This document shows, one piece after another, positions 16,232 through 61,536 of a stretch of DNA of 64,000 nucleotides. The notes below the pieces were generated by a model that saw only the letters and a program-made list of their open reading frames with translations, did not search any database and was not told where the DNA came from. The first letter of the stretch is position 1. Each line of letters starts with the position of its first letter. Both the position numbers and the translations under genes were made by a program. This DNA comes from Acidithiobacillus ferridurans (GTDB lineage Bacteria > Pseudomonadota > Gammaproteobacteria > Acidithiobacillales > Acidithiobacillaceae), in contig NZ_AP018795.1 in assembly GCF_003966655.1 (NCBI RefSeq), forward strand, positions 496,001-560,000, in the 5' to 3' direction.

Positions 16232-17353
16232 TCAGGCCGTAAACACAATCGGGATATCCCGCAGTTGTGTGCGACGTTTCGGCGCGGCGGGGACATAGTC
16301 CAAGGGCATAGTGGTCGTCTCGTCACCCAGTGCCAAGACTTCTTCACCGACAATCATGGAACAGCAGGAAGGTGTCACAAAGACATCCCGTTCCAGGTGC
16401 TTGGCGAGGGCCAGCATGCCATCAGAGGGGAAGGCCACCCCGTTCAGTCCCGCCATGACCGCATAGGTATCGGTGATGGAACGATGCACGCCGGAAGGCC
16501 GTGCGCAGCCCAGCAATACCGGTGTTTCCGGCAGCGCGGCCCGCGCATCCATAAAGAATTTACCAATTTCATCCGCCGCTGGCGTCACGAAAGGCCGACT
16601 CGAAGCGGCATATTGCGGCATGATCACCACCAGCACCAGGGCACTGGGCAGATGCCGCTGGATAATTTCGAGAGAGTTCCATTCGCCAAGCAATTCCCCG
16701 TAATGCAGCCCGATGACGATATGCGGCACCACTTTCATCTTGGTGGCCACCAAAGCTTCCAGCGCCGCCTCAAAATCATCCACCGAACGGCGCAAATGGT
16801 AAACCTGGTTGATGGTGTCCTGGGCACCGATCACATCCATCATGGCCACATCGACGCCCGCATCCTCCATCCCGCGCGCGAACTCGGGGGTGGCGATACC
16901 CGTATGCATAGCGATCTGTAAATTGGGATAGCGATCCTTGATCTTGCGCACCGTCGGAAAATAGGGTTCATAGTGGACCACGTTCTGATGGTCCGAACCT
17001 CCTGAAAGCAGCAGCCCACGGCCCCCATCCAGGACGATCCGGTCCACCAGACGATCCAGTTCTTCCGGCGCGCGAACCGGAATCATCGGCTCCAGAATCT
17101 TCGCCTTACAGTGGTCACACTGCAACTTGCAATCACCACCGGTGATGGAAATGGCCGGGAAGGCATTCTTCCCGCAGGCGGAAACTTCGGACGTTTCATG
17201 GTGCTTAAAAGAAGGCGTATAGAAATTGATACGACCCACCTGACTACCGGACAGGCCGGACCACCGTTCGCGCATAGAGTCCACCAGATCCACATTGAGG
17301 ACCAGATCCTCCAAAGCCTCTACTTGCGCAACAGCGTTCAACCATGGGTTCAT
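16232..17353 (-). CDS. radical SAM lipoyl synthase component, LipS1/LipS2 type (second)
   Basis: A 373-residue radical SAM protein with the cluster motif CKLQCDHC and additional cysteines in SEVSACGKNAF upstream and TPSCCSM near the C terminus. It is clearly different in sequence from the 12894-14030 protein, matching the two-protein LipS1/LipS2 scheme for building lipoate on LbpA. ATG 17353 has GGATGG eight bases upstream; ATG 17365 is the alternative, with AAAGG directly against it. It lies between lbpA and the sLpl gene. Confidence 0.8.
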   Translation of the reverse strand: MNPWLNAVAQVEALEDLVLNVDLVDSMRERWSGLSGSQVGRINFYTPSFKHHETSEVSACGKNAFPAISITGGDCKLQCDHCKAKILEPMIPVRAPEELDRLVDRIVLDGGRGLLLSGGSDHQNVVHYEPYFPTVRKIKDRYPNLQIAMHTGIATPEFARGMEDAGVDVAMMDVIGAQDTINQVYHLRRSVDDFEAALEALVATKMKVVPHIVIGLHYGELLGEWNSLEIIQRHLPSALVLVVIMPQYAASSRPFVTPAADEIGKFFMDARAALPETPVLLGCARPSGVHRSITDTYAVMAGLNGVAFPSDGMLALAKHLERDVFVTPSCCSMIVGEEVLALGDETTTMPLDYVPAAPKRRTQLRDIPIVFTA

Positions 17354-17437
17354 ATGAATTTCCATCCTTTATACAGAGAGAAAGCCGGACGGCCGCGAAA
17401 TGCGGCCGTCTTCCTGAATCATGACGGATTGCAGCAA

Positions 17438-17875
17438 TCAGCAGCCGCCAAAACCATCAGCCGTCATCTTTGCTTCGAATGCCGCCAAAGCATCGGCACC
17501 CGTCTTCAGTTCACCGGCATCACCTGCAAAATCAGCGGGCGTCAGCTTGGCAATCCAGCCGCTTCCATAGGGATCCTTGTTGATGAGGCCCGGCTCTTTG
17601 GCCACATCGTCATTGCTCGACACCACCGTACCGCTGACGGGGCTCTTCAACGGGCCAACCCACTTGCCGGACTCCACCGTTGCTGCGGACTTGTCCTTCT
17701 TGATCTCCTTGCCAGCGCCCTTGGGTGTATAAGAAACGATCTGTCCAGCCAACGCACAGGCATAGGAGGTCATGCCGATGGTCACAGTGCCATCGTCTTC
17801 CTTGCGCAGCCACACGTTATTCTCGACGTTGTACAGCAGATCTTCGGGGATTTCACAGCCACGTACAGTTCCCAT
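17438..17875 (-). CDS. lbpA: lipoate-binding protein LbpA (GcvH-like), first copy
   Basis: A 145-residue GcvH-fold carrier. The lipoyl-lysine motif reads VESGKWVGPLKSPVSG, with ESGKW replacing the ESVKA-like motif of glycine cleavage H proteins, as in LbpA. It should carry sulfur bound to its lipoyl arm between sHdr subunits. The ATG at 17875 lies six bases after AGGAG; ATG 17878 is too close. The protein ends in Cys (GFGGC). No glycine-cleavage genes are nearby, which supports LbpA over GcvH. Confidence 0.92.
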   Translation of the reverse strand: MGTVRGCEIPEDLLYNVENNVWLRKEDDGTVTIGMTSYACALAGQIVSYTPKGAGKEIKKDKSAATVESGKWVGPLKSPVSGTVVSSNDDVAKEPGLINKDPYGSGWIAKLTPADFAGDAGELKTGADALAAFEAKMTADGFGGC

Positions 17876-17931
17876 CATTTTCTCCTTTGGTTTGCATTTC
17901 CAGTAAACAGACCCCGCTGCCAAGCAGGATT

Positions 17932-18330
17932 TTAAAAAAACAGCAGTCGGTCAACCGACAGAATCAGATCGGCTAGATCACCGGCGGACGCCACCGCGTC
18001 CACTTCATCGATCAGGTTGTCGGCCTCGATCTCATAGCCGGGAAGCGCCGGTCGACAGACCTGGATTTCCACTCCGGCATTTTTTGCGTCACGAATGAAG
18101 TCGATAATCCGCTTGCCGCCAGCCATCGCCGAAAGATTTTCCGCGACGCCCGTCTGCATCAGCCGGACCGCTTCCATCGTGCAAAAAATCTTAACCTCCG
18201 CATCCATGGAAGACAACAGGGCACCCAGATAAAACGGCGTCGCACAGCGATGCGCAGTGCTCGGCCCGCTGGTCATGACGATGACTACCGACTTTTCGCC
18301 CTGATCTTCCAGATAATGGTCGTCGCTCAT
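17932..18330 (-). CDS. DsrE-family protein between the two lbpA genes
   Basis: A 132-residue soluble DsrE/F-like protein. The fold is visible as VVIVMTSGPSTAHRC at the start, LSSMDAEVKIFCTMEAV in the middle and GVEIQVCRPALPGYEI toward the end. Cysteines at HRCATP, IFCTM and VCRP are candidate sulfur-binding sites. Its start overlaps the stop of the preceding lbpA (ATGA). DsrE proteins pass persulfide sulfur; here one may load or unload LbpA (inference). Confidence 0.82.
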   Translation of the reverse strand: MSDDHYLEDQGEKSVVIVMTSGPSTAHRCATPFYLGALLSSMDAEVKIFCTMEAVRLMQTGVAENLSAMAGGKRIIDFIRDAKNAGVEIQVCRPALPGYEIEADNLIDEVDAVASAGDLADLILSVDRLLFF

Positions 18331-18773
18331 CGCATTCCTCGCTCACAATGAATGTCATCACGCAGACAGCGCTGCCGGTACAACTCAAAGGCGGCGTCCC
18401 CAGTAGACAGCTTTTTGAGCGCAGCGTCCACCGAAGCCACCGGGCGTACCCGGGCGATCCAGGCTTCGTAGGGTTCGATATTGAGCAGATTGGGATCTTC
18501 CAGGACATCTTCGTTGGCCGATTCGATCACGCAATCGAAGACATTCGGAACCGGACCTGCCCATTTTCCGCTCTCGATAGTGGCAACCGGCTTACCCAGC
18601 GGACGACGTGTCCCTGGTCGGCGTACCCGGACATGCAGAATTTTTCCGGCAATCGACTGAGATATGTCGGTCATACCCACCGTAAGCGTGCCATCGCCTT
18701 CGCGTCGCACCCAGATCTGGCATTCCCGATCGTAATATAATTCGGCGCGGAATTCGCAACCGTTACATTCCAT
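18327..18773 (-). CDS. lbpA: lipoate-binding protein LbpA-like, second copy
   Basis: A 148-residue GcvH-like protein. The lipoyl-lysine motif TIESGKWAGPVPN is LbpA-like, but the protein differs strongly from the 17438-17875 copy elsewhere and carries an N-terminal CxxC (MECNGCEF) and several C-terminal Cys and Arg residues. It follows a GGGGAAGG ribosome site 68 bp after hdrB2, with a terminator between. Two divergent LbpA proteins separated by a DsrE gene suggest distinct carriers or partners. Confidence 0.88.
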   Translation of the reverse strand: MECNGCEFRAELYYDRECQIWVRREGDGTLTVGMTDISQSIAGKILHVRVRRPGTRRPLGKPVATIESGKWAGPVPNVFDCVIESANEDVLEDPNLLNIEPYEAWIARVRPVASVDAALKKLSTGDAAFELYRQRCLRDDIHCERGMR

Positions 18774-18800
18774 GGCCTTCCCCTGGTGTCAGCGACAGGT

Positions 18801-18829
18801 AAAAAAAAGCGCCCCGCAAAGGGGCGCTT
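18801..18829 (-). terminator. strong terminator between hdrB2 and the lbpA genes
   Basis: On the minus strand a 9-bp stem AAGCGCCCC/GGGGCGCTT with a five-base loop is followed by a run of T residues (18801-18808). It lies 12 bp after the hdrB2 stop and only 28 bp before the lbpA start, so it should separate or attenuate transcription between the hdr genes and the lbpA-lipS-lipT genes. Confidence 0.9.
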
Positions 18830-18841
18830 CCCCATACCATT

Positions 18842-19753
18842 TCAGATAATGCCCTTGGCGGCAAGAAGATCCATCGAGTCGCTGACATTGTCGGGAATGC
18901 CGACCTTGCGCGCAGACAGACCCATGGCCAAACCGAGCAACTGGGTGAAATAAATCACCTTGACACTCGACTTGATGCCGAACTCCGTCTCCGCACGGAT
19001 CTGATGCATTTCCAGACCGGAATGGCAGGTAGGACATTCGGTGGCGATCACTTCCGCACCGGCATCTTCCGCCGCCTGGAGGATATTCAGCACCAACTGG
19101 GTGGAAGTATCCGAATCCGACAACGTATGCGCCCCACCACAACATGCCGTCTTCAAGGGGAAATCCACGCTCACGGCACCGGCCGCTGCGAGCAGGTCAT
19201 CCATGAAATGCGGCGCATAGCTCGATTCCGAACCGGGACCCTGATCTTTTTCCGGAAAAATCTGCCGGGGACGGGTGTACATGCAACCGTAGTAGTTGGC
19301 GATCTTCAGACCGTTGAGACTCTTTTTGACCTTGCTTTTGATACCATCGACGCCCACTTCCTCCATGAACCATTCCAGCGCGTGCAGGCTGCGCACGTCG
19401 CCTTCATAAACAGGGTCACCCGACTTGTTGGCAAGTTCCTGCACCGTCTTCATGGTTTCTTCTGAAGTAGCACATTCATATTCGGTCTGCTTCAGATTAC
19501 GATAGCAGCCGTTACAAGGCGCCATCACCGTATCACAGCCCTGCAGCTTACTGGCGATGGCCAGATTCCGCGCCGACATATAGGTCTGCAACATGGGATG
19601 AATGTTCTTTACCTCCATCGCACCACAGCAGTTGTAGTCCTCGAGGTTTTCCATCTCCAGACCGAGTTCCTTCACCAGAACGCGGGTGGACTTGTCATAG
19701 GGTCCGCCGGAACCTTCCAGCGCACAGCCCGGATAATATGCAACCTTAGCCAT
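18842..19753 (-). CDS. hdrB2: sHdr subunit HdrB2
   Basis: A 303-residue HdrB-like protein with two CCG domains: PGC, NCCGA and PCNGCY in the first half, and YGC, ACCGG and ECPTCH in the second. This CX(n)CCGX(n)CX2C pattern binds noncubane [4Fe-4S] clusters in HdrB. It should form part of the cytoplasmic sHdr complex that oxidises carrier-bound sulfur to sulfite. The start overlaps the hdrC2 stop by 8 bp and has GGAGG eight bases upstream. A terminator follows. The name comes from gene order C1-B1-A-hyp-C2-B2. Confidence 0.93.
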   Translation of the reverse strand: MAKVAYYPGCALEGSGGPYDKSTRVLVKELGLEMENLEDYNCCGAMEVKNIHPMLQTYMSARNLAIASKLQGCDTVMAPCNGCYRNLKQTEYECATSEETMKTVQELANKSGDPVYEGDVRSLHALEWFMEEVGVDGIKSKVKKSLNGLKIANYYGCMYTRPRQIFPEKDQGPGSESSYAPHFMDDLLAAAGAVSVDFPLKTACCGGAHTLSDSDTSTQLVLNILQAAEDAGAEVIATECPTCHSGLEMHQIRAETEFGIKSSVKVIYFTQLLGLAMGLSARKVGIPDNVSDSMDLLAAKGII

Positions 19754-20465
19754 GATGAGCGGCCTCCTTCTGTGCCTTCACGTATTCAGCGAGGACTTCA
19801 CCGGTTTTACCCCAGGATTTGGTCTTGGGACGAAACACCACATTCATACCCATTTTGCTCAACTGACCCAAGGGCATGTGCTTGGTCAGGCGTTTGCCAA
19901 ACTCCACGATCCAGGCCTGGACCAAGGGTTGCCCGCTGCGCTTGAAGAATCCCACCATGACTTCGGTATCTTCGATACGCCCGAATTCGATGCACTCATG
20001 GGTGAATTCCTCATCAAAATGCGTCGAAGGCGTTTTCGGGGTCAGGCCGTTCTCTTCCAGCCAATGCGCCGTCGCCTTCATCACCCCCTCAGGACGGACA
20101 TCCTTGGGACAGATATTGGTGCACTTGTTACACGAAACACACTGCCAGATGATGTCTTTATCCTTCATCAACTCGGCCTTCAGGCCCAAACGAATCAGAT
20201 AAATCCAGTAACGCGGGTTAAAATCCACATTCTGCGCATACATGGTGCAGGAATTCGTGCAGGAGCCGCACTGCCAGCAACGGTGCACGTTCTCGCCACC
20301 GTTGTAACTCTGGATGATCTCTTCAAAATGCTCTTCGTAGTCCGTCAGCGTGCGGGGGGTAATCATGGTGTTCCAGGAACCTGAAACGTCCACCCCGTCT
20401 ATTACCAGGTGATCGTGCTGCAAAATCCGATCGGGATCGATCAGTGTTTTTTCATGAATAGCCAT
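19746..20465 (-). CDS. hdrC2: sHdr iron-sulfur subunit HdrC2
   Basis: A 239-residue ferredoxin-like electron carrier with two CX2CX2CX3C motifs, CWQCGSCTNSC (about residues 63-73) and CVSCNKCTNIC (about 109-119), each expected to bind a [4Fe-4S] cluster. A C-terminal extension of about 110 residues lies beyond the clusters. AGGAG precedes the ATG. It overlaps hdrB2 by 8 bp, which fits a tight HdrC2-HdrB2 unit. Confidence 0.93.
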   Translation of the reverse strand: MAIHEKTLIDPDRILQHDHLVIDGVDVSGSWNTMITPRTLTDYEEHFEEIIQSYNGGENVHRCWQCGSCTNSCTMYAQNVDFNPRYWIYLIRLGLKAELMKDKDIIWQCVSCNKCTNICPKDVRPEGVMKATAHWLEENGLTPKTPSTHFDEEFTHECIEFGRIEDTEVMVGFFKRSGQPLVQAWIVEFGKRLTKHMPLGQLSKMGMNVVFRPKTKSWGKTGEVLAEYVKAQKEAAHHG

Positions 20466-20488
20466 AGCCGCTCCTATACCCTAATTCA

Positions 20489-21346
20489 TCAATGAATGGC
20501 GTCTCTCTTGATGCGAGATCCACCCATCCGCCGGTGTACTTCTACGCCCAGCAATTTACGGATTTGTTCCGTAAAGTCTGTTTGGCCACCAAAATCCGAA
20601 CGCAAAAAGCCTTCTGCCATAGCGCGCACATATTGTGAATACTGGTAGGCCAGGATGATATCGACCATATATGGCACATCACGATACACCCCCAGTTCCA
20701 GCAGCGCTTCCCGCATCCACTGGCGCAGACCCTCGAACATTTCGGGACTTTCTCCGAAAGGGAAAGCCGTCAGGTAGTCACCCCCGCGGATGAATTCCCG
20801 CACCGCGCCTGAGGTGGTACCCTGATCCCAGACCCAGCGCGTCATCAGCGGATAGCGTTCGGGATCACTGAAGTGCAGAACCTCAGCCCCCATGTCCCTG
20901 ATAACGCGTTTTGCCTTTCCTGTAGCAGGCAAAGCCTCTTCAAAACGCGTCATACGCTGCGTCAGATCACCATGGCCCTCCAGCAAATCGCGCATCATTT
21001 CACCTACCCGCGCAACACCCTGCTCCTCTATGACGGGCCAGATCTTGCGTCTCGCAGTAAACATCTGCTCCACGAGATGCGCCATCTGTGCTTCCGTCAA
21101 TGGTCGTTTGTCCTCCAGCAGGAGGCGACGAAAACTCGCCGTCTTCTCTGTCAGGCTACCGACCAGGTTTGCAAGACCCTGCTGTCCCTCGAACGCCTCT
21201 TCAAGCTCATAAAAGGATCTGTTGAGCAGCGCCTTATCGAGATCAATCGGCAGCGCGGCGGGAACGATATGTTCGCCGTTCCCGCTGTGGTAGATATCAG
21301 CTGGCAATTTTCTGCTGTCCGTAGAGATCGGCCACCGCACGCGCAC
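20489..21346 (-). CDS. conserved sHdr-locus protein of unknown function (hyp)
   Basis: A protein of up to 285 residues between hdrA and hdrC2, the position always held by the uncharacterised hyp gene in sHdr loci. It is soluble and helix-rich, with no cysteine motif and no known domain I can name. The start is unclear: GTG 21346 overlaps hdrA by 50 bp, while a TTG at 21307 would overlap it by 11 bp and begin LPADIYHSG. The first clear ATG lies far inside. The interval given is therefore the longest choice. Confidence 0.8.
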   Translation of the reverse strand: MRVRWPISTDSRKLPADIYHSGNGEHIVPAALPIDLDKALLNRSFYELEEAFEGQQGLANLVGSLTEKTASFRRLLLEDKRPLTEAQMAHLVEQMFTARRKIWPVIEEQGVARVGEMMRDLLEGHGDLTQRMTRFEEALPATGKAKRVIRDMGAEVLHFSDPERYPLMTRWVWDQGTTSGAVREFIRGGDYLTAFPFGESPEMFEGLRQWMREALLELGVYRDVPYMVDIILAYQYSQYVRAMAEGFLRSDFGGQTDFTEQIRKLLGVEVHRRMGGSRIKRDAIH

Positions 21347-22352
21347 CAGCAGACTGCCCTTGCGCTATGGAAGAATCGATATCATCCGGGCCGGTCGCCG
21401 CACCACACACGTAAATCCCCTTACGGGTCGTACCCTGGCTGTTGGTGTATTGTTCCGCGCGATCGATAAATCCGTGTTTTTCCAGACCAATACCAAAAGT
21501 CCTGGCAATTTCCGGGTTCAATGCATTGGGGTCCATACCGATGGCGTGAACGACGATATCCATGGGAATCACAATAGGACGCTTGACCAGGGTATCCTCA
21601 CCCTTGACCAGCAAACGACCGTCAGGCGACTTGGTGACCTCGGCGATACGCGCCTTGACGAACTTGGTTTTAAACTCTTCCTGACTCTTCCAGTAGAATT
21701 TGTCTTCGTAAAGGCCAAAGGTACGGATGTCCATGTAATAAATGAACACATCGGTACTCGGAGAAATTTCCTTGATCTCCATGGCAAGGTTGGTGGAAAC
21801 GGTGCAGCAGATCTTGGAGCACCATTCACGACCAATCTGACGGTCACGTGAACCGACGCAAAGCAGGATGGCCACGCGCTCTGGAACCCTGCCGTCCGAA
21901 GGACAACGAATCTGCCCCGCCGCCACCATCTGCTCCATCTGCGTGGTGGTCAGGACGTCCTCGTAGGTACCGAAGCCCCATTCCGGCTTGTTGATGGAGT
22001 CGAAATGGGTGAATCCGGTACCCAGTATGATGGCACCCGCTTCCACCTTGTCGCCGTTGCTCAGGGTGGCCGTAAAGTTACCGGCCTCACCCGCTACCTG
22101 GGTGACCTTGGCTGACTTGTGGATGCTGATGTTGCCGTCGCCTTCCACACGGCTGACCATGCGGCCAATGGCATCTTTGGCCCATTCGCCAGAAGGTACC
22201 AGCTTGGCGTAACCGGAGATGATGGGCGCCCCACCGAGAATATCTTCCTTCTCGACGATGACGGCCTTCTTCCCCATGGAGGCTATGGTGGCGGCTGCCG
22301 ACAAGCCTGCTGGACCTGCACCTACGACTAACACTGTATCTTGTGCACTCAC
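21297..22352 (-). CDS. hdrA: sHdr flavoprotein subunit HdrA
   Basis: A 351-residue HdrA-like flavoprotein. The FAD dinucleotide motif VVGAGPAGLSAAA is at residues 9-21, and a cysteine group LLCVGSRD...CSKICC (about 165-182) is placed to hold an Fe-S cluster. A C-terminal GIYVCGAATGPDD segment completes the FAD fold. It is the central electron-transfer subunit of the cytoplasmic sHdr complex. The GTG start has AAGGAG eight bases upstream and lies 12 bp after hdrB1. It is far shorter than methanogen HdrA and lacks its ferredoxin domains, as expected for sHdr. Confidence 0.93.
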   Translation of the reverse strand: MSAQDTVLVVGAGPAGLSAAATIASMGKKAVIVEKEDILGGAPIISGYAKLVPSGEWAKDAIGRMVSRVEGDGNISIHKSAKVTQVAGEAGNFTATLSNGDKVEAGAIILGTGFTHFDSINKPEWGFGTYEDVLTTTQMEQMVAAGQIRCPSDGRVPERVAILLCVGSRDRQIGREWCSKICCTVSTNLAMEIKEISPSTDVFIYYMDIRTFGLYEDKFYWKSQEEFKTKFVKARIAEVTKSPDGRLLVKGEDTLVKRPIVIPMDIVVHAIGMDPNALNPEIARTFGIGLEKHGFIDRAEQYTNSQGTTRKGIYVCGAATGPDDIDSSIAQGQSAGARAVADLYGQQKIAS

Positions 22353-22364
22353 TGAACTTTCTCC

Positions 22365-23708
22365 TTAAGCGCCCGCTTTCATATTGATGTTTTGATTGGT
22401 GGCCAGTTCGGGGTTGTAGAGGTATTCCACGTTACCCTGTTCCACCTGCTTGAGATAATCCTGGAAGTCGGCCTTGGCCTTGTCCCAACTGATGCCCATC
22501 TTCTCCACCAGGTCTTCACAGGGCGAAGCATGCCACTGCAACTGCACGATCTTGAAGGGATCGGCGCCGCAGGCCAGGGCCGCGAGCTGCACGTCGGCGA
22601 CAATGGGAATGCTGTAGTTCATGTCGTGGGCCTTGCCGATCCACTGGTTCTTGTCCATGGTGGTGATACAACCAGTATCGATGCCGACCATGACATCGGC
22701 GTTGGCTTCTTCCCGGGCGACCTTGATCTTGCGATTCATCGTAAAACTGCGGGTGAACTCGCGTTCGGAAATGATGTGCCGAAAACCGAAGCCGCAGCAG
22801 TCGTACCAGGTGGAGTAGTCGATGACCTGGGCGCCCAGGGCCTGGGCGACGGAGGTGCCGACGGCGGTACGATTACCGCCGAGCACCGTGTTGTCGTACA
22901 CGGCGTCTTCCGCCACCATCTTGTAATAGTGGCAGGCGGCATGGTTGGTGACCCGGATGTTGCTCATGTCGATGGTCTGCAACTCGCTGGCGATACGGTG
23001 GCGCATGACGTGCAGCCATTCGCTGTAGTGGACCACCTCCTCGGGGATGACGATCTTGCCGTCCACCAGGCGTCCCAGCTTGCCGAGGATCTTCTTGACC
23101 TTCTCCCGCAGTTCGGCGGACTCGATGAGGTATTTGCGGATCTCCTTGTAGTTGCCGAAGGAGGTGCCGCAGTGCACCAGAGGGTAGAAGTGGCCATTCT
23201 CGAAGCCATGCTGCTTGCCGGAGACGTAGGCCTGATGGAAGTTGCGCAGGAAGACGGCGGCCAGGGACTCCACGTTGCCGATGCCGGAGCCATGGTAGTT
23301 CCAGGCGGTGCAGGAAGTCTGGTCGGTCTCGTCCAGATAGTCCATGCCGAACTTGTTCATAAACCAGAGGATACTGGTGGGATAGCCGGGTATGTTGCCG
23401 CACTGCCCGCAACTCTTGTGATGCCAGAATTGATTCGTAGGAATCCGCTTTTTCCAGCCATACAGAGTATCCACTTCAACGGGCTTGTGCTGGTCGGTAA
23501 GGCGGTGGACGATGATTTCGCCTTCCTTCTCCAACTGCCACATGTGATCACGGACGTCATCCATCCGCTCGCCCAGATCCATCGTACGCCGGTCGACATG
23601 GCTGCGCACCCAGGCCGTTGCCGCTTCGGCTTCGTTCGCCGAAAGATTCGTGTCCTGAAAGAAGGCGCCGTGACCCGCCACGCCTTGCTGTGTGCTGTTG
23701 TCGCTCAT
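22365..23708 (-). CDS. hdrB1: sHdr subunit HdrB1
   Basis: A 447-residue HdrB-like protein. Cysteine groups include SCGQCG, TSCTAW, VHCGTS, HAACHYY, WYDCCGFGF and TGCIT; the last three make a CCG-type cluster site in the C-terminal half, while the N-terminal half lacks a standard CCG. It works with HdrC1 and HdrA in the cytoplasmic sHdr complex. ATG 23708 follows GGAGACC and lies 10 bp after hdrC1. A nearly identical stand-alone copy is at 49376-50728. Confidence 0.92.
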   Translation of the reverse strand: MSDNSTQQGVAGHGAFFQDTNLSANEAEAATAWVRSHVDRRTMDLGERMDDVRDHMWQLEKEGEIIVHRLTDQHKPVEVDTLYGWKKRIPTNQFWHHKSCGQCGNIPGYPTSILWFMNKFGMDYLDETDQTSCTAWNYHGSGIGNVESLAAVFLRNFHQAYVSGKQHGFENGHFYPLVHCGTSFGNYKEIRKYLIESAELREKVKKILGKLGRLVDGKIVIPEEVVHYSEWLHVMRHRIASELQTIDMSNIRVTNHAACHYYKMVAEDAVYDNTVLGGNRTAVGTSVAQALGAQVIDYSTWYDCCGFGFRHIISEREFTRSFTMNRKIKVAREEANADVMVGIDTGCITTMDKNQWIGKAHDMNYSIPIVADVQLAALACGADPFKIVQLQWHASPCEDLVEKMGISWDKAKADFQDYLKQVEQGNVEYLYNPELATNQNINMKAGA

Positions 23709-23718
23709 GATGGTCTCC

Positions 23719-24405
23719 TCAGTCCTTGTCGTTCTGGCTCTCGAGCCAGTCTTCATAGTCTTCACGTTTCTCGTCAATGAAGTCCTCAATGACGTCGAAA
23801 AGGTTTTCATCCATGGTTTCCAATGACTTCAGCACGCCCGTCATTTCCCAGATGGTGTACATCTCGACGGAGGTTTTTAGCGACACTTCCCACGCCGTTT
23901 CCACGGTTTGCAAGGTGCGCACCGGAATGGCTTTACGCAGTATGCGCAAGTCGCCTTCCACCTTCTGAATATTGGGACCCCAGTCGGGGAAGTGATCGGG
24001 CTGGATCATGTCGGGGGACAACTGATTGCCCGTGGTGATCAGCTTGAGCATGACGCGCCCGAAAGGTCGCAACACATCTTTGGCCGACTGCATGCCATGG
24101 CGGATGGACACTTCGCGCATGATCATGACCAGCCCACCGGGAGAATTCTTGAAAGGACAGCGTGCGGCACAGGTCATACACTGCGCACAGGCCCAGATTT
24201 TCTCCTGCATCGCGTCGTAGATCTGCTCGACATTTTCGGTCCACAACAACTGTACAATCTCGCGCGGGCTATAGTCATAGAACTGCGCAGACGGGCAGGT
24301 GGCCGTGCAGATGCCACAATTCAAACATCCATTGAGTTCGTGGTCATAACGAAAATCCGCACGGATTTCGTCGAACATCTCCCTCATTTCAGCGTAAGTC
24401 GCCAT
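23719..24405 (-). CDS. hdrC1: sHdr iron-sulfur subunit HdrC1
   Basis: A 228-residue protein with two cluster motifs, CLNCGICTATC (about residues 27-37) and CAQCMTCAARC (about 73-83), each for a [4Fe-4S] cluster. The C terminus is strongly acidic (DEKREDYEDWLESQNDKD). GAGGAG precedes the ATG. It starts the core hdr genes, 65 bp after the dsrE gene and 10 bp before hdrB1. Confidence 0.93.
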   Translation of the reverse strand: MATYAEMREMFDEIRADFRYDHELNGCLNCGICTATCPSAQFYDYSPREIVQLLWTENVEQIYDAMQEKIWACAQCMTCAARCPFKNSPGGLVMIMREVSIRHGMQSAKDVLRPFGRVMLKLITTGNQLSPDMIQPDHFPDWGPNIQKVEGDLRILRKAIPVRTLQTVETAWEVSLKTSVEMYTIWEMTGVLKSLETMDENLFDVIEDFIDEKREDYEDWLESQNDKD

Positions 24406-24470
24406 TTACTCGCTCCTCGCTAGCAATAAATACGTCGTACCTGTTGACACCCGCAGTGCAGCCCGACAGT

Positions 24471-24941
24471 TCACATGAAGAGCGTGATATCAGACTCTCC
24501 GGCGAACTCAAAGAACGAGGCAGCACCACCGAGTTCAATGCCGTCAATGAAATCCGCGGTGTCAAACTCGAAAAGATCAACGGTCATCTGGCAGGCGATC
24601 ATCCGTACTTCTGCTTCAACACAGAGCTCACGAAGTTCTTCCAGACTGGCTACACCCTTTGCCTTCATTTTGCTCTTCATCATGGAGGTAGCCATCCCTT
24701 CCATGCCGGGGAGCACCATCATCAGTGTCGGCATTGGTATCGGCATGGGCATTGCGGGATTCCCGAGCGGACTCACGCGCAGATGGCTCAAATCCTTCTT
24801 CAACAACTGCAGGCCGTAGAAGGTGAAAAATATTTCAACCCCATAGCCGAGCGCCGCTGCGGTAGATGCCAGGATGAAGGGCGGATAACCCCAATCCAGC
24901 GTGCCTTTCGTAGCGATAATCGCCAATTTTTTCTCGTCCAT
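24471..24941 (-). CDS. DsrE-family sulfur carrier (DsrE2/DsrE3 type) of the sHdr locus
   Basis: A 156-residue DsrE-like protein with the start LAIIATKGTLDWGYPPFIL and a methionine/proline-rich loop NPAMPMPIPMPTLMM near residue 65, which I associate with the DsrE2 group. Cysteines in RELCVEA and MIACQM are candidate persulfide sites. It lies between tusA and hdrC1, the usual rhd-tusA-dsrE order for moving sulfane sulfur to sHdr. I am sure of the superfamily, less so of the subgroup. Confidence 0.85.
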   Translation of the reverse strand: MDEKKLAIIATKGTLDWGYPPFILASTAAALGYGVEIFFTFYGLQLLKKDLSHLRVSPLGNPAMPMPIPMPTLMMVLPGMEGMATSMMKSKMKAKGVASLEELRELCVEAEVRMIACQMTVDLFEFDTADFIDGIELGGAASFFEFAGESDITLFM

Positions 24942-47297: not shown

Positions 47298-48022
47298 TAC
47301 GCACCATCCGCAGCGCATTGTTCTATGGGGGCTTTGCGATCTGGACGCTGATCTGGGCTATTTTCAGTCTAGCCGTAGCACCATTGCCGCTGCCGGCGCG
47401 GGTCTGGGCCAGTCGTTTATGGGCGCGCGCCGGCGTCGGCTGGCTCCATTGGAGTTGCAGCCTGCGTTATCGGGTTTCCGGTCTCGCCAATATTCCCGCC
47501 ACACCTTGCGTCATCGTCGCCAATCATCAGTCGGCGCTGGAGACCCTGCTCTTTTGGTGCATCTTCCCGCAACTCTCCTTTGTACTGAAAAAGGAACTCT
47601 TCCGCATCCCGGTGATCGGCTGGGGCCTGCGTTTGGCCTGGCCCATCGGGATCGACCGCAACGGGGGCAGGGAAGCCCTGCTGCAGGTGATTGAACAGGG
47701 GAAACTCCGGCTGGCTGCGGGCTTTCATGTGGTCATTTTTCCGGAAGGCACCCGCCACCCCTGCGGCACAGTCGGCCCCTTCAGCAGCACCGCTGCCGGG
47801 CTGGCCATCCGGGCTCAGGTCCCCCTTCTGCCGATCGCTGTGAATAGCGGGTGTTTCTGGCCGCGTACAGACTGGCGAAAATGGCCGGGGATCGTCGAAG
47901 TGCATATCGGCCCCGCGCTACCCCCCGCAGGCAAGGCTGGGTCCCTCAACCAGCAGGCGCACGACTGGATTACGGCTGCAATTGCGGAGATGGGGACGAG
48001 GCCTGCCGCAAAAGCGCTTTGA
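47294..48022 (+). CDS. plsC: 1-acyl-sn-glycerol-3-phosphate acyltransferase
   Basis: A 242-residue membrane-associated acyltransferase that makes phosphatidate. An N-terminal hydrophobic segment (IWTLIWAIFSLAVAPL) precedes motif I ANHQSALET; the H-x4-E form (instead of H-x4-D) is seen in related proteobacterial proteins. Motif III is FPEGTRHPCG. The 3' end overlaps the converging ATP-grasp gene by 53 bp. Confidence 0.9.
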   Translation: MIRTIRSALFYGGFAIWTLIWAIFSLAVAPLPLPARVWASRLWARAGVGWLHWSCSLRYRVSGLANIPATPCVIVANHQSALETLLFWCIFPQLSFVLKKELFRIPVIGWGLRLAWPIGIDRNGGREALLQVIEQGKLRLAAGFHVVIFPEGTRHPCGTVGPFSSTAAGLAIRAQVPLLPIAVNSGCFWPRTDWRKWPGIVEVHIGPALPPAGKAGSLNQQAHDWITAAIAEMGTRPAAKAL

Positions 48023-48878
48023 CCAGCGTACCAGCGATATCCTGCCCCGTAACAGCTTCGATGCCTTCCAGACTGGGGACAGGGTTCACCTCCAGCACCA
48101 GAGGCCGCTGATCTTCAGCCAGCATAATATCTACTCCGGCAAAGCTCAGGCCCAGAGCAGCCGCCGACCGGCGGGCAATGACGGCAAAATCTTCGGGCAG
48201 ATCGGGCAATGCCGACGCCCGCCCCCCGCAATGCAAATTGCTGCGAAAATCCTCGGCAGATGCCTCCCTGCGCATGGCCGCAATGACCTTACCGAACAGT
48301 ACGATCACGCGGATATCCTGGCGCCCGCTGAGAAAGCGCTGCGCCATCGCCTCGTGCTGCAGATGGAGGACGGTATCCAGCATGCCCCGAGCAGCGGCAG
48401 GTGTATCTGCCAGACTGACACCCACCCCCTGCGAGCCGCTGAGTAATTTTTGCACCAGCGGCATTCCCAAGGAGGAGACCGCCAGATCGCGCTGTCCCGC
48501 CTGGGTGAAGTAGGCGGTCTGCGGTACGGCAACGCCCGCCGCCACCAGGGCCTGAAGGGAGGCGAATTTATCCCGGGAAAGCTCCAACGCCCCCGCACTA
48601 TTGAGGCAGCAACTCCCCTCCCCCGCAAAATAACGCAGCAGACGCGCTCCCAGGTTCGTGATTGGAGTACCCACCCGTGGAATCACCGCCGCACAGGGTG
48701 CCAGGGGAGAGGATCCATAATAAAGCGCGGCCTGCGTGTCGTGTAGCATCAGCAAACACTGTTCAGGCTGAAGCAGGACCGGATCGGCGCCCGCAGCGAC
48801 AACCGCATCCAGCAAGCGGCGGGTCGAATAGAGCTCCACATGGCGCGAAAGAATGGCTACGCGGGGCACCGCAACCAT
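47970..48878 (-). CDS. RimK-like ATP-grasp ligase
   Basis: A 302-residue ATP-grasp protein of the RimK/alpha-L-glutamate ligase group. It has LELSRDKFASLQALVAAGVAVPQT, the glycine-rich loop KLLSGSQGVGVSL, RVIVLFGKVIAAMRR, and the metal-binding end VLEVNPVPSLEGIE. Such enzymes add amino acids to a protein or small-molecule carboxylate; the substrate here is unknown. It follows the small 48881-49201 gene by 2 bp, so the two share a transcript. Confidence 0.87.
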   Translation of the reverse strand: MVAVPRVAILSRHVELYSTRRLLDAVVAAGADPVLLQPEQCLLMLHDTQAALYYGSSPLAPCAAVIPRVGTPITNLGARLLRYFAGEGSCCLNSAGALELSRDKFASLQALVAAGVAVPQTAYFTQAGQRDLAVSSLGMPLVQKLLSGSQGVGVSLADTPAAARGMLDTVLHLQHEAMAQRFLSGRQDIRVIVLFGKVIAAMRREASAEDFRSNLHCGGRASALPDLPEDFAVIARRSAAALGLSFAGVDIMLAEDQRPLVLEVNPVPSLEGIEAVTGQDIAGTLVKALLRQASSPSPQLQP

Positions 48879-48880
48879 GC

Positions 48881-49201
48881 CTAGGCTACATCCTCATGGA
48901 AACTGAGCAGGGGCAACTCGCCGTGCCCGATGGATCGCTCGATGAAACCTGCCCGCCCCGGCGACCGCTGCTCCAGCGCTGTCCTTGCCAGGGCGGGCGC
49001 AGCGCTGATCGCGGCAAAGAGTACCTCCAGTTCCCAGGGATCGACCCGCAGCGTGCCAAAGGGATTATCCCGCGTTGCCGGACGCCAGAAGAGATTCGGC
49101 AACCATCCTTTGTTGCGCACTGCGGGGGCCAGATAAAACGCGCGACAACGTGCGGCTACCTCCGCCGACGCGGGAATCGAAATCACATCCTGGTTTTCCA
49201 T
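48881..49201 (-). CDS. small protein paralogous to the 50912-51208 gene
   Basis: A 106-residue soluble protein of unknown function. ATG 49201 follows AAGGGG. Its second half aligns by eye with the protein at 50912-51208: both have Ala-Arg-Cys near the start, then a WELEV/CELEV block followed by an Ala-rich helix, then SPGRAGFIER / EPGRAAFIQR and a GxxPLL end. The two genes flank the solo hdrB gene in opposite directions. It is 2 bp before the ATP-grasp gene. Confidence 0.75.
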   Translation of the reverse strand: MENQDVISIPASAEVAARCRAFYLAPAVRNKGWLPNLFWRPATRDNPFGTLRVDPWELEVLFAAISAAPALARTALEQRSPGRAGFIERSIGHGELPLLSFHEDVA

Positions 49202-49294
49202 AATACCCCTTTCAAGTCGTTGCTGATGCGGGCCGCCACCCACGGCGACGATCATAAAGCCATTTACTTGGCAACGGAATCATTGTGGAGCATA

Positions 49295-49323
49295 ATAGTC
49301 AACTATTCGCATGGATGTACAAT
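49295..49323. promoter_or_regulatory. palindrome and -10-like element upstream of the solo hdrB gene
   Basis: ATAGT-CA-ACTAT (49295-49306) is an inverted repeat, directly followed by GCATGGATGTACAAT (49309-49323) ending in a TACAAT box. The first element repeats at 11279-11290 and the second, with one mismatch, at 8978-8992. Both lie in the 174-bp gap between the divergent small gene and hdrB. They are candidate operator and promoter parts; no good -35 box is seen for hdrB. Confidence 0.4.
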
Positions 49324-49375
49324 GTGTTCCACAGTGTATTCCGGTTAAGCGGCTTGATGCCCAAGGAGTCAATCT

Positions 49376-50728
49376 ATGAAAGACGACAACAACAGCACGC
49401 AACAGGGCGTGGCAGGTCACGGCGCCTTTTTTCAGGACACGAATCTTTCGGCAAATGAGGCGGAAACGGCTACGGCCTGGGTGCGCAGCCATGTGGATCG
49501 CCGCACCGTCGATCTGGGCGAGCGCATGGACGACATCCGCGACCACATGTGGGAACTGGAGAAGGAAGGTGAGATCATCGTCCACCGCATCAACCCCGAA
49601 CATCGTGCGGAAGCGGTGCAGACCCTTTACGGCTGGGATAAAAAGATCCCCACCAATAACCTCTGGCACCACAAGAGCTGCGGGCAGTGCGGCAACATCC
49701 CCGGCTATCCCACCAGCCTCATGTGGTTCATGAACAAGCTGGGCATCGACTACCTCGACGAGACCGACCAGACCTCCTGCACCGCCTGGAACTACCACGG
49801 CTCCGGCATCGGCAACGTGGAGTCCCTGGCCGCCGTTTTCCTGCGCAACTTCCATCAGGCCTACGTCTCCGGCAAGCAGCACGGCTTCGAGAATGGCCAT
49901 TTCTTTCCCCTGGTGCACTGCGGCACCTCCTTCGGCAACTACAAGGAGATCCGCAAATACCTCATCGAGTCCGCCGAACTGCGGGAGAAAGTCAAGAAGA
50001 TCCTCGGCAAGCTGGGACGTCTGGTGGACGGCAAGATCGTCATCCCCGAGGAGGTGGTCCACTATAGCGAATGGCTGCACGTCATGCGCCACCGTATCGC
50101 CAGCGAGTTGCAGACCATCGACATGAGCAACATCCGGGTCACCGTCCATGCCGCCTGCCACTATTACAAGATGGTGCAGGAAGACGCCGTCTACGACAAC
50201 ACCGTGCTCGGTGGTAATCGTACCGCCGTCGGCACCTCCGTCGCCCAGGCCCTGGGCGCCCAGGTCATCGACTACTCCACCTGGTACGACTGCTGCGGCT
50301 TCGGTTTTCGGCACATCATTTCCGAACGCGAGTTCACCCGCAGTTTCTCCATGAACCGCAAGATCAAGGTGGCGCGGGAGGAGGCCAAGGCCGACGTCAT
50401 GATCGGCATCGACACCGGCTGCATCACCACCCTGGATAAAAACCAGTGGATCGGCAAGGCCCACGACATGAATTACTCCATGCCCATCATCGCCGACGTG
50501 CAGCTCGCGGCCCTGGCCTGCGGCGCCGATCCCTTCAAGATCGTGCAGTTGCAGTGGCATGCTTCGCCCTGTGAAGACCTGGTGGAGAAGATGGGCATCA
50601 GTTGGGACAAGGCCAAAGCCGACTTCCAGGATTATCTCAAGCAGGTGGAACAGGGTAACGTGGAATACCTCTACAACCCCGAACTGGCCACCAATCAAAA
50701 CATCAATATGAAGATGGCGTCCGCCTGA
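49376..50728 (+). CDS. hdrB: solo HdrB1 paralogue
   Basis: A 450-residue near-copy of HdrB1 (22365-23708). All cysteine groups are kept (SCGQCG, TSCTAW, VHCGTS, HAACHYY, DCCGFG, TGCIT). I count roughly thirty differing residues, about half of them in one stretch around residues 72-97. AAGGAG precedes the start. No other hdr genes adjoin it; it has its own putative promoter and a terminator. It could substitute for HdrB1 in the sHdr complex under other conditions. Its function is inferred from the copy. Confidence 0.92.
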   Translation: MKDDNNSTQQGVAGHGAFFQDTNLSANEAETATAWVRSHVDRRTVDLGERMDDIRDHMWELEKEGEIIVHRINPEHRAEAVQTLYGWDKKIPTNNLWHHKSCGQCGNIPGYPTSLMWFMNKLGIDYLDETDQTSCTAWNYHGSGIGNVESLAAVFLRNFHQAYVSGKQHGFENGHFFPLVHCGTSFGNYKEIRKYLIESAELREKVKKILGKLGRLVDGKIVIPEEVVHYSEWLHVMRHRIASELQTIDMSNIRVTVHAACHYYKMVQEDAVYDNTVLGGNRTAVGTSVAQALGAQVIDYSTWYDCCGFGFRHIISEREFTRSFSMNRKIKVAREEAKADVMIGIDTGCITTLDKNQWIGKAHDMNYSMPIIADVQLAALACGADPFKIVQLQWHASPCEDLVEKMGISWDKAKADFQDYLKQVEQGNVEYLYNPELATNQNINMKMASA

Positions 50729-50750
50729 TTCAGTTTGATGCGCAAAATGA

Positions 50751-50774
50751 CCCCGCCTTTGCGCGGGGTTTTTT
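50751..50774 (+). terminator. rho-independent terminator after the solo hdrB gene
   Basis: A CCCCGC/GCGGGG stem with a six-base loop is followed directly by TTTTTT and a second T-run after one G. It begins 22 bp past the hdrB stop, so hdrB is a one-gene transcript. Confidence 0.9.
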
Positions 50775-50911
50775 GTTTTTGCACGGAATCTATCCGGGCA
50801 TGGAATACTTCAATCGACAAAAGCCTCCCCTCCGGACATGTTTTTCGGGTATGCTTAGGCACGCCCGCCACGACAGGCGATGGCTTTGCCCGTTTAAACA
50901 GGAGGATGACA

Positions 50912-51208
50912 GTGGACCCGAAGGCCCTCAATGCCCGTTGTGTAGAACTTTTTCAGAGCCCGGATGTGCGCCTGCGGATGTGGAATGCGCGGATGTTCTG
51001 GCAGGTTGGCGATCAGATGAATGTCGCGCCGACCGCACTCACCGATCCCAAGGTGGATACCTGCGAACTGGAAGTCATGCTCAGCGCCGCCGCACTGACC
51101 GATTCCCAGTGTGCCGCTGAACTGGACAAACGCGAGCCCGGCCGCGCCGCCTTCATTCAGCGCCAGGTCCGGGAAGGCATGCGACCGCTTCTGCGTCCTG
51201 CGCAATAG
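50912..51208 (+). CDS. small protein paralogous to the 48881-49201 gene
   Basis: A 98-residue soluble protein. GTG 50912 lies six bases after AGGAGG; ATG 50906 is too near that site. It shares the ARC start, CELEVMLSAAAL helix and EPGRAAFIQRQ block with the protein at 48881-49201. No known domain is recognised. It lies downstream of the solo hdrB gene, beyond its terminator. Confidence 0.75.
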   Translation: MDPKALNARCVELFQSPDVRLRMWNARMFWQVGDQMNVAPTALTDPKVDTCELEVMLSAAALTDSQCAAELDKREPGRAAFIQRQVREGMRPLLRPAQ

Positions 51209-51454
51209 TCAAGGTCGCAGGCATTGCGTAGTAGTTGCAGGCCCCCGCAACATGGGTGGTCGCCAGCGTAGCGGCCCCCTGTGCGGCGACGTTGACCGGC
51301 AACGTACAGCCGGCAAAAAAATGTCTCGGACCGGACCGAGGGGCATGCCGCACCCAGCGCAAATCACCTCCCATTGTTATCCGCCCTTTGGCAAGGCTGG
51401 TACGAGGCGCTATTCTCGCGTCATCAATGCCGCCATTCGTCAGGGAACTGTTCC

Positions 51455-52156
51455 ATGTCCAAAAAACCCACCACGCCTCTGCAAACCCCCGATGGCAGCA
51501 AACACATCCTGCTGCACTCCTGCTGCGCCCCCTGCGCCGGACCCATCATGGACGATATCCGCGCCGCCAGCATCGACTTCACCGTCCTGTTCTACAATCC
51601 CAACATCCACCCCACGGCGGAATACGAGCTGCGCAAGGAAGAGAATATCCGTTACGCGGAAAAGCTCGGCGTACCCTTCGTGGATCTGGACTACGACAAG
51701 GACCGCTGGTTTGAACGGGTCAAGGGCCTGGAATGGGAACCGGAACGGGGCGCGCGTTGCACCGCCTGTTTCGACATGCGTTTCGAGCACTCCGCCCTCT
51801 ATGCCAGAGAACACGGCTTCACGGTCTTTACCAGCACCCTGGGCATCTCCCGCTGGAAGGACATGGTCCAGATCAACGCCTGCGGCGAACGGGCCGCTGC
51901 CCGCCATGGGGATCTGCAGTACTGGACCTACAACTGGCGCAAGGGTGGCGGCAGCCAGCGCATGATCGAGATTGCCAAGGAAGAAAGCTTCTACCAGCAG
52001 GAATATTGCGGCTGCGTCTATTCCCTGCGCGATTCCAACCGCCACCGCACCGCCCAGGGCCGCCCCAAGATCGTCCGCGGCGTCAAGTTTTACGGACGGG
52101 ACGAAACGGCCGGCGCGGTACCCCCAGAGGCCGCCACCGGCATCAGCAAGCGGTAA
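51455..52156 (+). CDS. queH: epoxyqueuosine reductase QueH
   Basis: A 233-residue QueH (DUF208), which performs the last step of queuosine synthesis for tRNA wobble modification. The metal and cluster motifs HSCCAPCAG (residues about 22-30), CTACFDMR and QEYCGCVYS are intact. The ATG follows CAGGGA. The 3' end overlaps the converging membrane-protein gene by 67 bp. Confidence 0.93.
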
Positions 52157-60909: not shown

Positions 60910-61536
60910 ATGACGGCTGTTATGGCGGAAACCTCCCACGAGGAGGAGTTGGCCGAGGCCCGGGAAGCCCTGGCGCATCTGGTGGAGAATGGGGATCTGG
61001 AGCGTATCGTGCATCTGGCGCGGCTGGCCGGTGCCGCGCAGGATTCCATGAGCGATGAATTGGTCGGGCGGATGGCGGGTCTGGCCAGCGATGGTCTCGA
61101 CTTGCTGGACCGGGTCCATCGCAGTCAGGTCGTCCATGCCCTGCCCGCCATCTCCGCGCTGGTGGAGAATGGGGATCTGGAGCGTATCGTGCATCTGGCG
61201 CGGCTGGTCGGTGCCGCGCAGGATTCCATGAGCGATGAAATCGTGACGCGGTTGGCGGGCATGGCCAGCAATGCCATGTGCCTGCTCGACCGGGCTACCC
61301 GCACCGGCGTCATGGAGCGGATGGTGACGGTGGCGGAAAAGATGGATCAGGAGCATATCCTGACCGATTTCCTCCGCTGTCTGGCCGGGGCTACGGAAGA
61401 AGCGGCCCATGCCCCTCTTCCCAAAGGCGGCCTCACCGGACTCTGGGAACTGATAAAACAACCGGAAACCCAGCAAACCATCCAGTTCCTCATGCTCCTC
61501 GGTAAACACTTCCGATCCTGCCGACTCAAACACTGA
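60910..61536 (+). CDS. DUF1641-type protein with an internal tandem duplication
   Basis: A 208-residue helical protein with two copies of a 60-residue module: LVENGDLERIVHLARL...GAAQDSMSDE at about residues 24-50 and again at about 84-110. DUF1641 proteins often accompany SQR-like and formate-dehydrogenase-like flavoproteins and may anchor or assemble them. It follows the SQR-like gene by 12 bp with a strong GGGAGGTGA ribosome site. The C-terminal part (TGLWELIKQPETQQTIQFLM) is the usual family end. Confidence 0.8.
   Translation: MTAVMAETSHEEELAEAREALAHLVENGDLERIVHLARLAGAAQDSMSDELVGRMAGLASDGLDLLDRVHRSQVVHALPAISALVENGDLERIVHLARLVGAAQDSMSDEIVTRLAGMASNAMCLLDRATRTGVMERMVTVAEKMDQEHILTDFLRCLAGATEEAAHAPLPKGGLTGLWELIKQPETQQTIQFLMLLGKHFRSCRLKH
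60979..61059 (+). repeat. 81-bp direct repeat, first copy
   Basis: This segment is identical to 61159-61239 except for one base (C at 61028, T at 61208). The copies are exactly 180 bp apart, so the frame is preserved; the flanking parts of the 180-bp unit are similar but diverged. Confidence 0.95.
61159..61239 (+). repeat. 81-bp direct repeat, second copy
   Basis: Second copy of the repeat at 60979-61059, within the same gene, 80 of 81 bases identical. Confidence 0.95.

Follow-up and report, generated by a model that had tools for sequence, protein, structure and literature searches.

Why should two similar small genes stand on opposite strands either side of a solitary hdrB? The question is posed by a locus in our window, the whole stretch of 64,000 nucleotides that was analysed (positions 496001-560000 of a one-contig 2.92-Mb genome, G000, whose close relatives include Acidithiobacillus species). 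An earlier note had answered it by proposing a new system, a self-contained module of the solo hdrB with two partners. The open reading frames lie where that note had placed them: P1, a protein of 106 residues, is encoded at 48881..49201 on the minus strand, and P2, of 98 residues, at 50912..51208 on the plus strand, with a GTG start according to the same note, and hdrB stands between them.

The relationship of the two proteins is the simplest part of the answer. The motifs ARC, ELEV, PGRAxFIxR and GxxPLL, on which the note had based their kinship, occur in identical order in both (ARC at residues 17-19, ELEV at 57-60, PGRAGFIER at 81-89 and GELPLL at 94-99 of P1; ARC at 8-10, ELEV at 52-55, PGRAAFIQR at 76-84 and GMRPLL at 89-94 of P2). 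In BLASTP, P1 and P2 are 36% identical across an alignment of 87 aa (E 4e-17 as a single comparison), and a six-frame search of their own genome with P1 returns P2 as the second-best match at E 3.1e-11, the next one lying at 0.34. The profile alignment that the note had proposed as a check, with 11 P1-type against 10 P2-type sequences, gives a probability of 99.6 and an E-value of 7.5e-24. Judged by their sequences, P1 and P2 are true paralogs with a similarity far beyond chance. Substitution patterns point to purifying selection on both genes, with P2 the more constrained: dN/dS is 0.05-0.10 for P2 in all seven pairs, and for P1 0.11-0.38 in six of seven and 0.61 in the remaining, very close pair. 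Across 31 members of the family F, W, V, E-L-E, G-R and P are invariant (F29, W30, V48, E52, L53, E54, G77, R78 and P92 of P2), the only charged residues among them being E52, E54 and R78, and cysteines are not common to all members. Since cysteines are not universal and invariant charged residues are few, our guess is that P1 and P2 may be non-catalytic.

To what family do they belong? The note knew of none, and this part of its reading holds: none of the 31 members exceeds any Pfam or NCBIfam cut-off, and PDB sequences compared with the family profile give no match at E 1. AlphaFold models are confident for P2 (pLDDT 93.7, pTM 0.87) and good for P1 (pLDDT 87.3, pTM 0.80), and have five helices in a common order. 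Foldseek finds nothing at E 0.001 or better for either model in the PDB, nor for the P2 model among viral structures, and in VIA-align none of 28 chains reaches a Z of 2. These results are consistent with a new fold, short of proof; the family can be described as mostly helical proteins of about 95-105 residues, which are probably cytoplasmic. A plasmid search with P2 gave zero matches, and in a phylum sample the family profile matched one of 398 genomes, the window's own, the carriers of sHdr, the heterodisulfide-reductase-like complex of sulfur oxidation, being uncounted among the 398. A third subtype of the family was seen in three genomes (L162, L164 and L166 in G156, G251 and G364) near a gene that we take to be a Uup-like ABC-F gene.

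The gene between P1 and P2 (49376..50728, plus strand, 450 aa) is the counterpart of AFE_2586 and carries the CCG cysteine-rich domain (PF02754, 35.6 bits against a cut-off of 20.6), and it stays below the methanogen-type HdrB cut-offs of NF041780 / TIGR03288 (128.1 against 450 bits; 72.2 against 345.15). It is solitary in position only, because the same window holds, on the opposite strand, a full sHdr operon whose hdrB1 is 93% identical to it, so the note's term ‘solo’ describes where the gene stands and does not make it an independent gene. According to Pfam the operon (16232..24941, minus strand) comprises dsrE, hdrC1, hdrB1, hdrA, hyp, hdrC2, hdrB2, lbpA, dsrE, lbpA and a radical SAM gene, names that we presume from gene order. 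They agree with those in the relevant sections of PMC6382920. The operon copy of hdrB1 (22365..23708, minus strand, its start picked by eye inside a 481-aa open reading frame) forms an inverted repeat with 49389-50712. The two genes, 27 kb apart, are the only two matches in the genome, and their DNA is 91% identical over 1327 columns, the alignment ending within the coding sequence at both sides. The extra gene thus stands outside hdrC1-hdrB1-hdrA-hyp-hdrC2-hdrB2 with the operon hdrB1 as its closest relative. Self-comparison of the window also brought up a 136-bp direct repeat with 87% identity, at 60979-61114 and 61159-61294.

In Acidithiobacillus ferrooxidans ATCC 23270, AFE_2586 has been in print since 2009 as a third HdrB and is described in the pertinent parts of the literature as rising, like the operon, on sulfur (PMC2754497), as having its own mapped, RegA-bound promoter (PMC5506826) and as increased in pyrite biofilm cells (PMC6450195). 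The open-access papers searched mention AFE_2586, and we found no mention in them of AFE_2585 or AFE_2587. In the window P1 and hdrB1 are separated by a divergent promoter region (49202..49375), which has a sigma-70-like site at 49268-49296 on the plus strand and by eye matches the AFE_2586 promoter sequence printed in PMC5506826. The same region holds multiple overlapping promoter-like sites on both strands, five being found in the scanned 3.6 kb against 1.2 expected. Between hdrB1 and P2 a terminator-like hairpin with a T run lies at 50749..50770 on the plus strand, the longest stem in a scan that returned four terminator-like sites against 3.8 expected by chance.

How do the two hdrB1 copies remain so alike? 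We compared third codon positions in 11 genomes with two copies (G018 yielded one copy and no within-genome pair). Identity within a genome is 0.94-1.00 in eight of them (G004, G005, G006, G016, G019, G021, G022 and G026), against 0.61-0.82 for the same copy between species, save in the close pairs G004/G005 (0.93-0.94) and G000/G014 (0.87-0.90). That copies are more alike within species than between them indicates gene conversion. Three genomes have copies that are not homogenised, the window's own and G014 at 0.81 and G020 at 0.56; the second hdrB of G020 (L191), 56% identical at third positions to the P1-side copy, was kept in the table and the tree, and counts against the pattern. In the hdrB1 tree the two copies of a genome group with each other, with G000, G014 and G020 as exceptions. 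The copies in the window are mosaic: their longest identical run measures 134 nt, where shuffled codons give a mean of 59 and none of 5000 shuffles reached that length; uneven selection along hdrB1 could add to such a run. Because the place of the extra copy between P1 and P2 is common across genera, a single ancient duplication whose copies gene conversion has kept similar is favoured over repeated new ones. Five of the eight homogenised genomes are assembled in 1 to 6 contigs (G004, G019, G021, G022, G026), and in many drafts contigs terminate inside hdrB1, as expected of a repeat. We found no account of gene conversion between hdrB1 copies in the open-access literature. As gene conversion keeps the copies interchangeable, the likeliest role of the second hdrB1 is dosage or separate regulation, and it is best read as an added or separately regulated HdrB1 and not as a third enzyme.

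Additional copies occur elsewhere. Two genomes outside Acidithiobacillaceae, G030 and G049, have two alike hdrB1 copies (0.90 and 0.97, all positions) that are not beside P1 or P2. The extra copies there (L097 in G049, L103 in G030) have unlike surroundings and resemble their own operon copies; their neighbours are presumably acetyltransferase and RimK-like genes at L097 and Rrf2-like and truncated-haemoglobin-like genes at L103. G004 has two more hdrB1-like copies (G004:C1 1443101 and 2356217; L100, L101), which hardly differ between themselves and have about 90% identity with the window protein, and a few kb from L100 lies a transposase-like gene, presumably of IS110 type. Partial second sHdr clusters are found in G005, with hdrB1-hdrA on C27 and hdrC1, hdrB2 and hdrB1 on C12 (L188, L189).

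Might the inverted copies form a recombination switch? Inversion of the intervening 27-41 kb would split the sHdr operon and put hdrB1-hdrA-hyp-hdrC2-hdrB2 behind the solo promoter. The geometry suits such a switch, since all 10 genomes that have both copies together beside P1 and/or P2 (G000, G004, G005, G006, G014, G016, G019, G021, G022, G026) carry them inverted to each other on a single contig, and the assembly of A. ferrianus MG (G006) has exactly the flipped layout: on G006:C46 (L085, L086) the operon is interrupted at hdrB1 and fused to the P1/P2 locus. This layout is not trustworthy, however, because this draft was assembled from paired Illumina reads with inserts of about 460 bp, as stated in the relevant part of PMC7040056, and its hdrB1 copies are identical over 1342 nt. 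We set the operon inversion in G006 aside as a possible assembly artefact, and with the unflipped layout in the other nine genomes we consider a switch very improbable. The P1 of G006 (L053) is without the stretch that bears the ELEV helix.

That P1 and P2 bracket hdrB, as the note had seen in one genome, is a conserved trait: the order rimK-like < P1 <> hdrB1 > P2 > queH is kept through Acidithiobacillaceae. Of the 26 P1 loci in this family, 21 have P1 facing hdrB1, and in the five others the contig breaks off within about 260 bp. Of the 20 P2 loci, 17 have hdrB1 upstream of P2, with the contig ending 81-561 bp away in the other three, and queH (51374..52156, plus strand, PF02677, in the window) follows P2 in 20 of 20. 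Some 26 kb separate P2 from hdrB1 in G026. The conserved bracket and the want of known families for P1 and P2 speak for the note's own proposal, a dedicated complex of solo HdrB, P1 and P2 forming a new system separate from sHdr. We find it hardly credible, because the two hdrB1 copies encode nearly the same protein in most species and the P1/P2 family occurs in genomes whose single hdrB1 is borne by the operon. The hairpin ahead of P2 would cut it off from hdrB1, the closest partner of P1 is a RimK-like gene, and outside Acidithiobacillaceae no sHdr gene was found beside a family homologue at any of 23 loci (crude gene calls, read by eye). Neighbours named in that reading (glmS, uup, pnp, acs, uvrA, YheT, LipS, IS110) are what we took the sequences to be from their look. 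The linkage to sulfur genes that the note had offered as a test is thus absent outside Acidithiobacillaceae as a physical linkage and present as a phyletic one.

The RimK-like neighbour gives rise to another explanation. The gene (47970..48878, minus strand; PF08443 115 bits, PF18030 65.4 bits) begins 2 nt past the stop codon of P1 in the window, and 28 of 29 P1 loci have a RimK-like gene immediately next to P1 or with a single gene in between, including those of G029 and G030, where P1 is without an adjacent hdrB. P1 might then work with the ligase, for example as a substrate or specificity factor in C-terminal tailing, P2 having diverged to a partner of its own and hdrB1 being a mere neighbour. 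This is improbable in our estimation, as no RimK-like gene was seen next to the P1-type homologues outside Acidithiobacillales, and none ever next to P2-type ones.

If physical linkage is confined to one family of bacteria, does the protein family nevertheless go with sHdr? In a class sample of 369 Gammaproteobacteria genomes it occurs in 15 and hdrB1 in 22, with 13 genomes having both, two the family only, nine hdrB1 only and 345 neither (Fisher p 1.6e-16, a test that ignores shared ancestry); expressed differently, hdrB1 is present in 13 of 15 family-positive and 9 of 354 family-negative genomes. All eight GTDB families with P1/P2 relatives have hdrB1, and five further ones have hdrB1 without them. 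SoxB, over its cut-off in 147 of the 369 genomes, served as a control for sulfur lifestyle: among SoxB-positive genomes the P1/P2 family is found in 11 of 19 with hdrB1 and in 1 of 128 without. Pooling the class sample with that of the order of G251 gives 34 family-positive genomes, of which 31 carry hdrB1, again with shared ancestry ignored by the tests. The three family-positive genomes without it are G295 (96% complete), G364 (75%) and G782 (81%), and G295 has a family member with neither sHdr hdrB1 nor sHdr-type hdrB2.

The order of G251 allows a closer view. Among its 47 genomes the family occurs in 20 and hdrB1 in 39 (19 both, one family only, 20 hdrB1 only, seven neither), and the association is not significant (p 0.11); in the 38 genomes of high quality the same categories hold 18, 0, 16 and 4, which is likewise not significant (p 0.11). 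Of the sHdr genomes, nine of the 22 in the class sample and 20 of the 39 in this order are without the family, which travels with sHdr, outside the operon, and is dispensable in some sHdr organisms. Three members at separate loci are present in 18 of the 20 positives, one in two and two in none, which means that 45 of the 47 genomes have either three paralogs or none. As positives carry three and never two, the paralogs seem to work, or to be inherited, as a set. Two other traits were considered as the one tracked by the family. dsrA was rejected (p 0.76), and so was the type of lipoate assembly: a radical-SAM neighbour is found in 10 of 10 family-positive sHdr regions outside Acidithiobacillaceae and also in 6 of 10 family-negative ones, with a seventh family-negative region of this kind in another order (G196).

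These distributions also admit a family unrelated to sHdr function, an old trait of some sulfur-oxidising Gammaproteobacteria that was inherited or transferred in the same lineages and has a housekeeping or stress role. Its housekeeping neighbours outside Acidithiobacillaceae fit this, as do the non-significant result within the order and the half of that order's sHdr genomes that do without it. The association across the class is strong, on the other hand, spanning eight GTDB families and holding among SoxB carriers, and in the genus g470 of the same order the presence of the family matches that of hdrB1 in five of five genomes. We regard an unrelated trait as quite possible, if somewhat doubtful.

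We tentatively prefer, at a little short of an even chance, to see P1 and P2 as candidate sHdr-linked accessory proteins acting in trans and not as products of a solo-hdrB operon. They would be putative non-catalytic partners, such as an assembly factor, an adaptor or an activity modulator, of the sHdr machinery or of a carrier, and hdrB1 between them would supply extra HdrB1 from its own promoter. We infer that they may contact HdrB1 or another sHdr protein. A more ambitious version appears unlikely in its entirety. It would make this undescribed, new-fold family an accessory set of sHdr in Gammaproteobacteria, two to three paralogs kept or lost together that bind or tune sHdr, two of them clustered in Acidithiobacillaceae at a gene-converted second hdrB1 whose inverted copies could rewire the operon.

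What would this mean for sHdr at large? The oxidation of sulfane sulfur to sulfite by sHdr is still being worked out, and biochemical proof was missing according to the relevant parts of a 2019 review and a Thioalkalivibrio survey (PMC6335251, PMC6382920). An unnamed small family that goes with sHdr in eight bacterial families offers a concrete gene set for experiments. The concerted evolution of hdrB1 carries a warning: where a contig of a draft genome stops at hdrB, the break is due to a repeat, and a copy standing alone is to be read in terms of HdrB1 dosage or regulation.

Three known systems invite comparison. The extra gene resembles the HdrB1 of sHdr in its CCG domain and near-identity to the operon copy, and differs in standing alone, in having its own promoter and in being inverted relative to that copy. 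The gene directly downstream of P1 belongs with the RimK-like ATP-grasp ligases (PF08443), whereas P1 itself is no ligase and the pairing is seen only in Acidithiobacillales. The sHdr accessory proteins (LbpA, DsrE, TusA, LipS1/LipS2, sLpl(AB)) are mostly encoded beside the operon, as the pertinent sections of PMC6382920 and PMC10332631 describe. P1 and P2 are not; they are absent from some sHdr genomes and have no family in common with these proteins. The accessory proteins are small or auxiliary and go with sHdr, and it is this phyletic link that P1 and P2 share with them.
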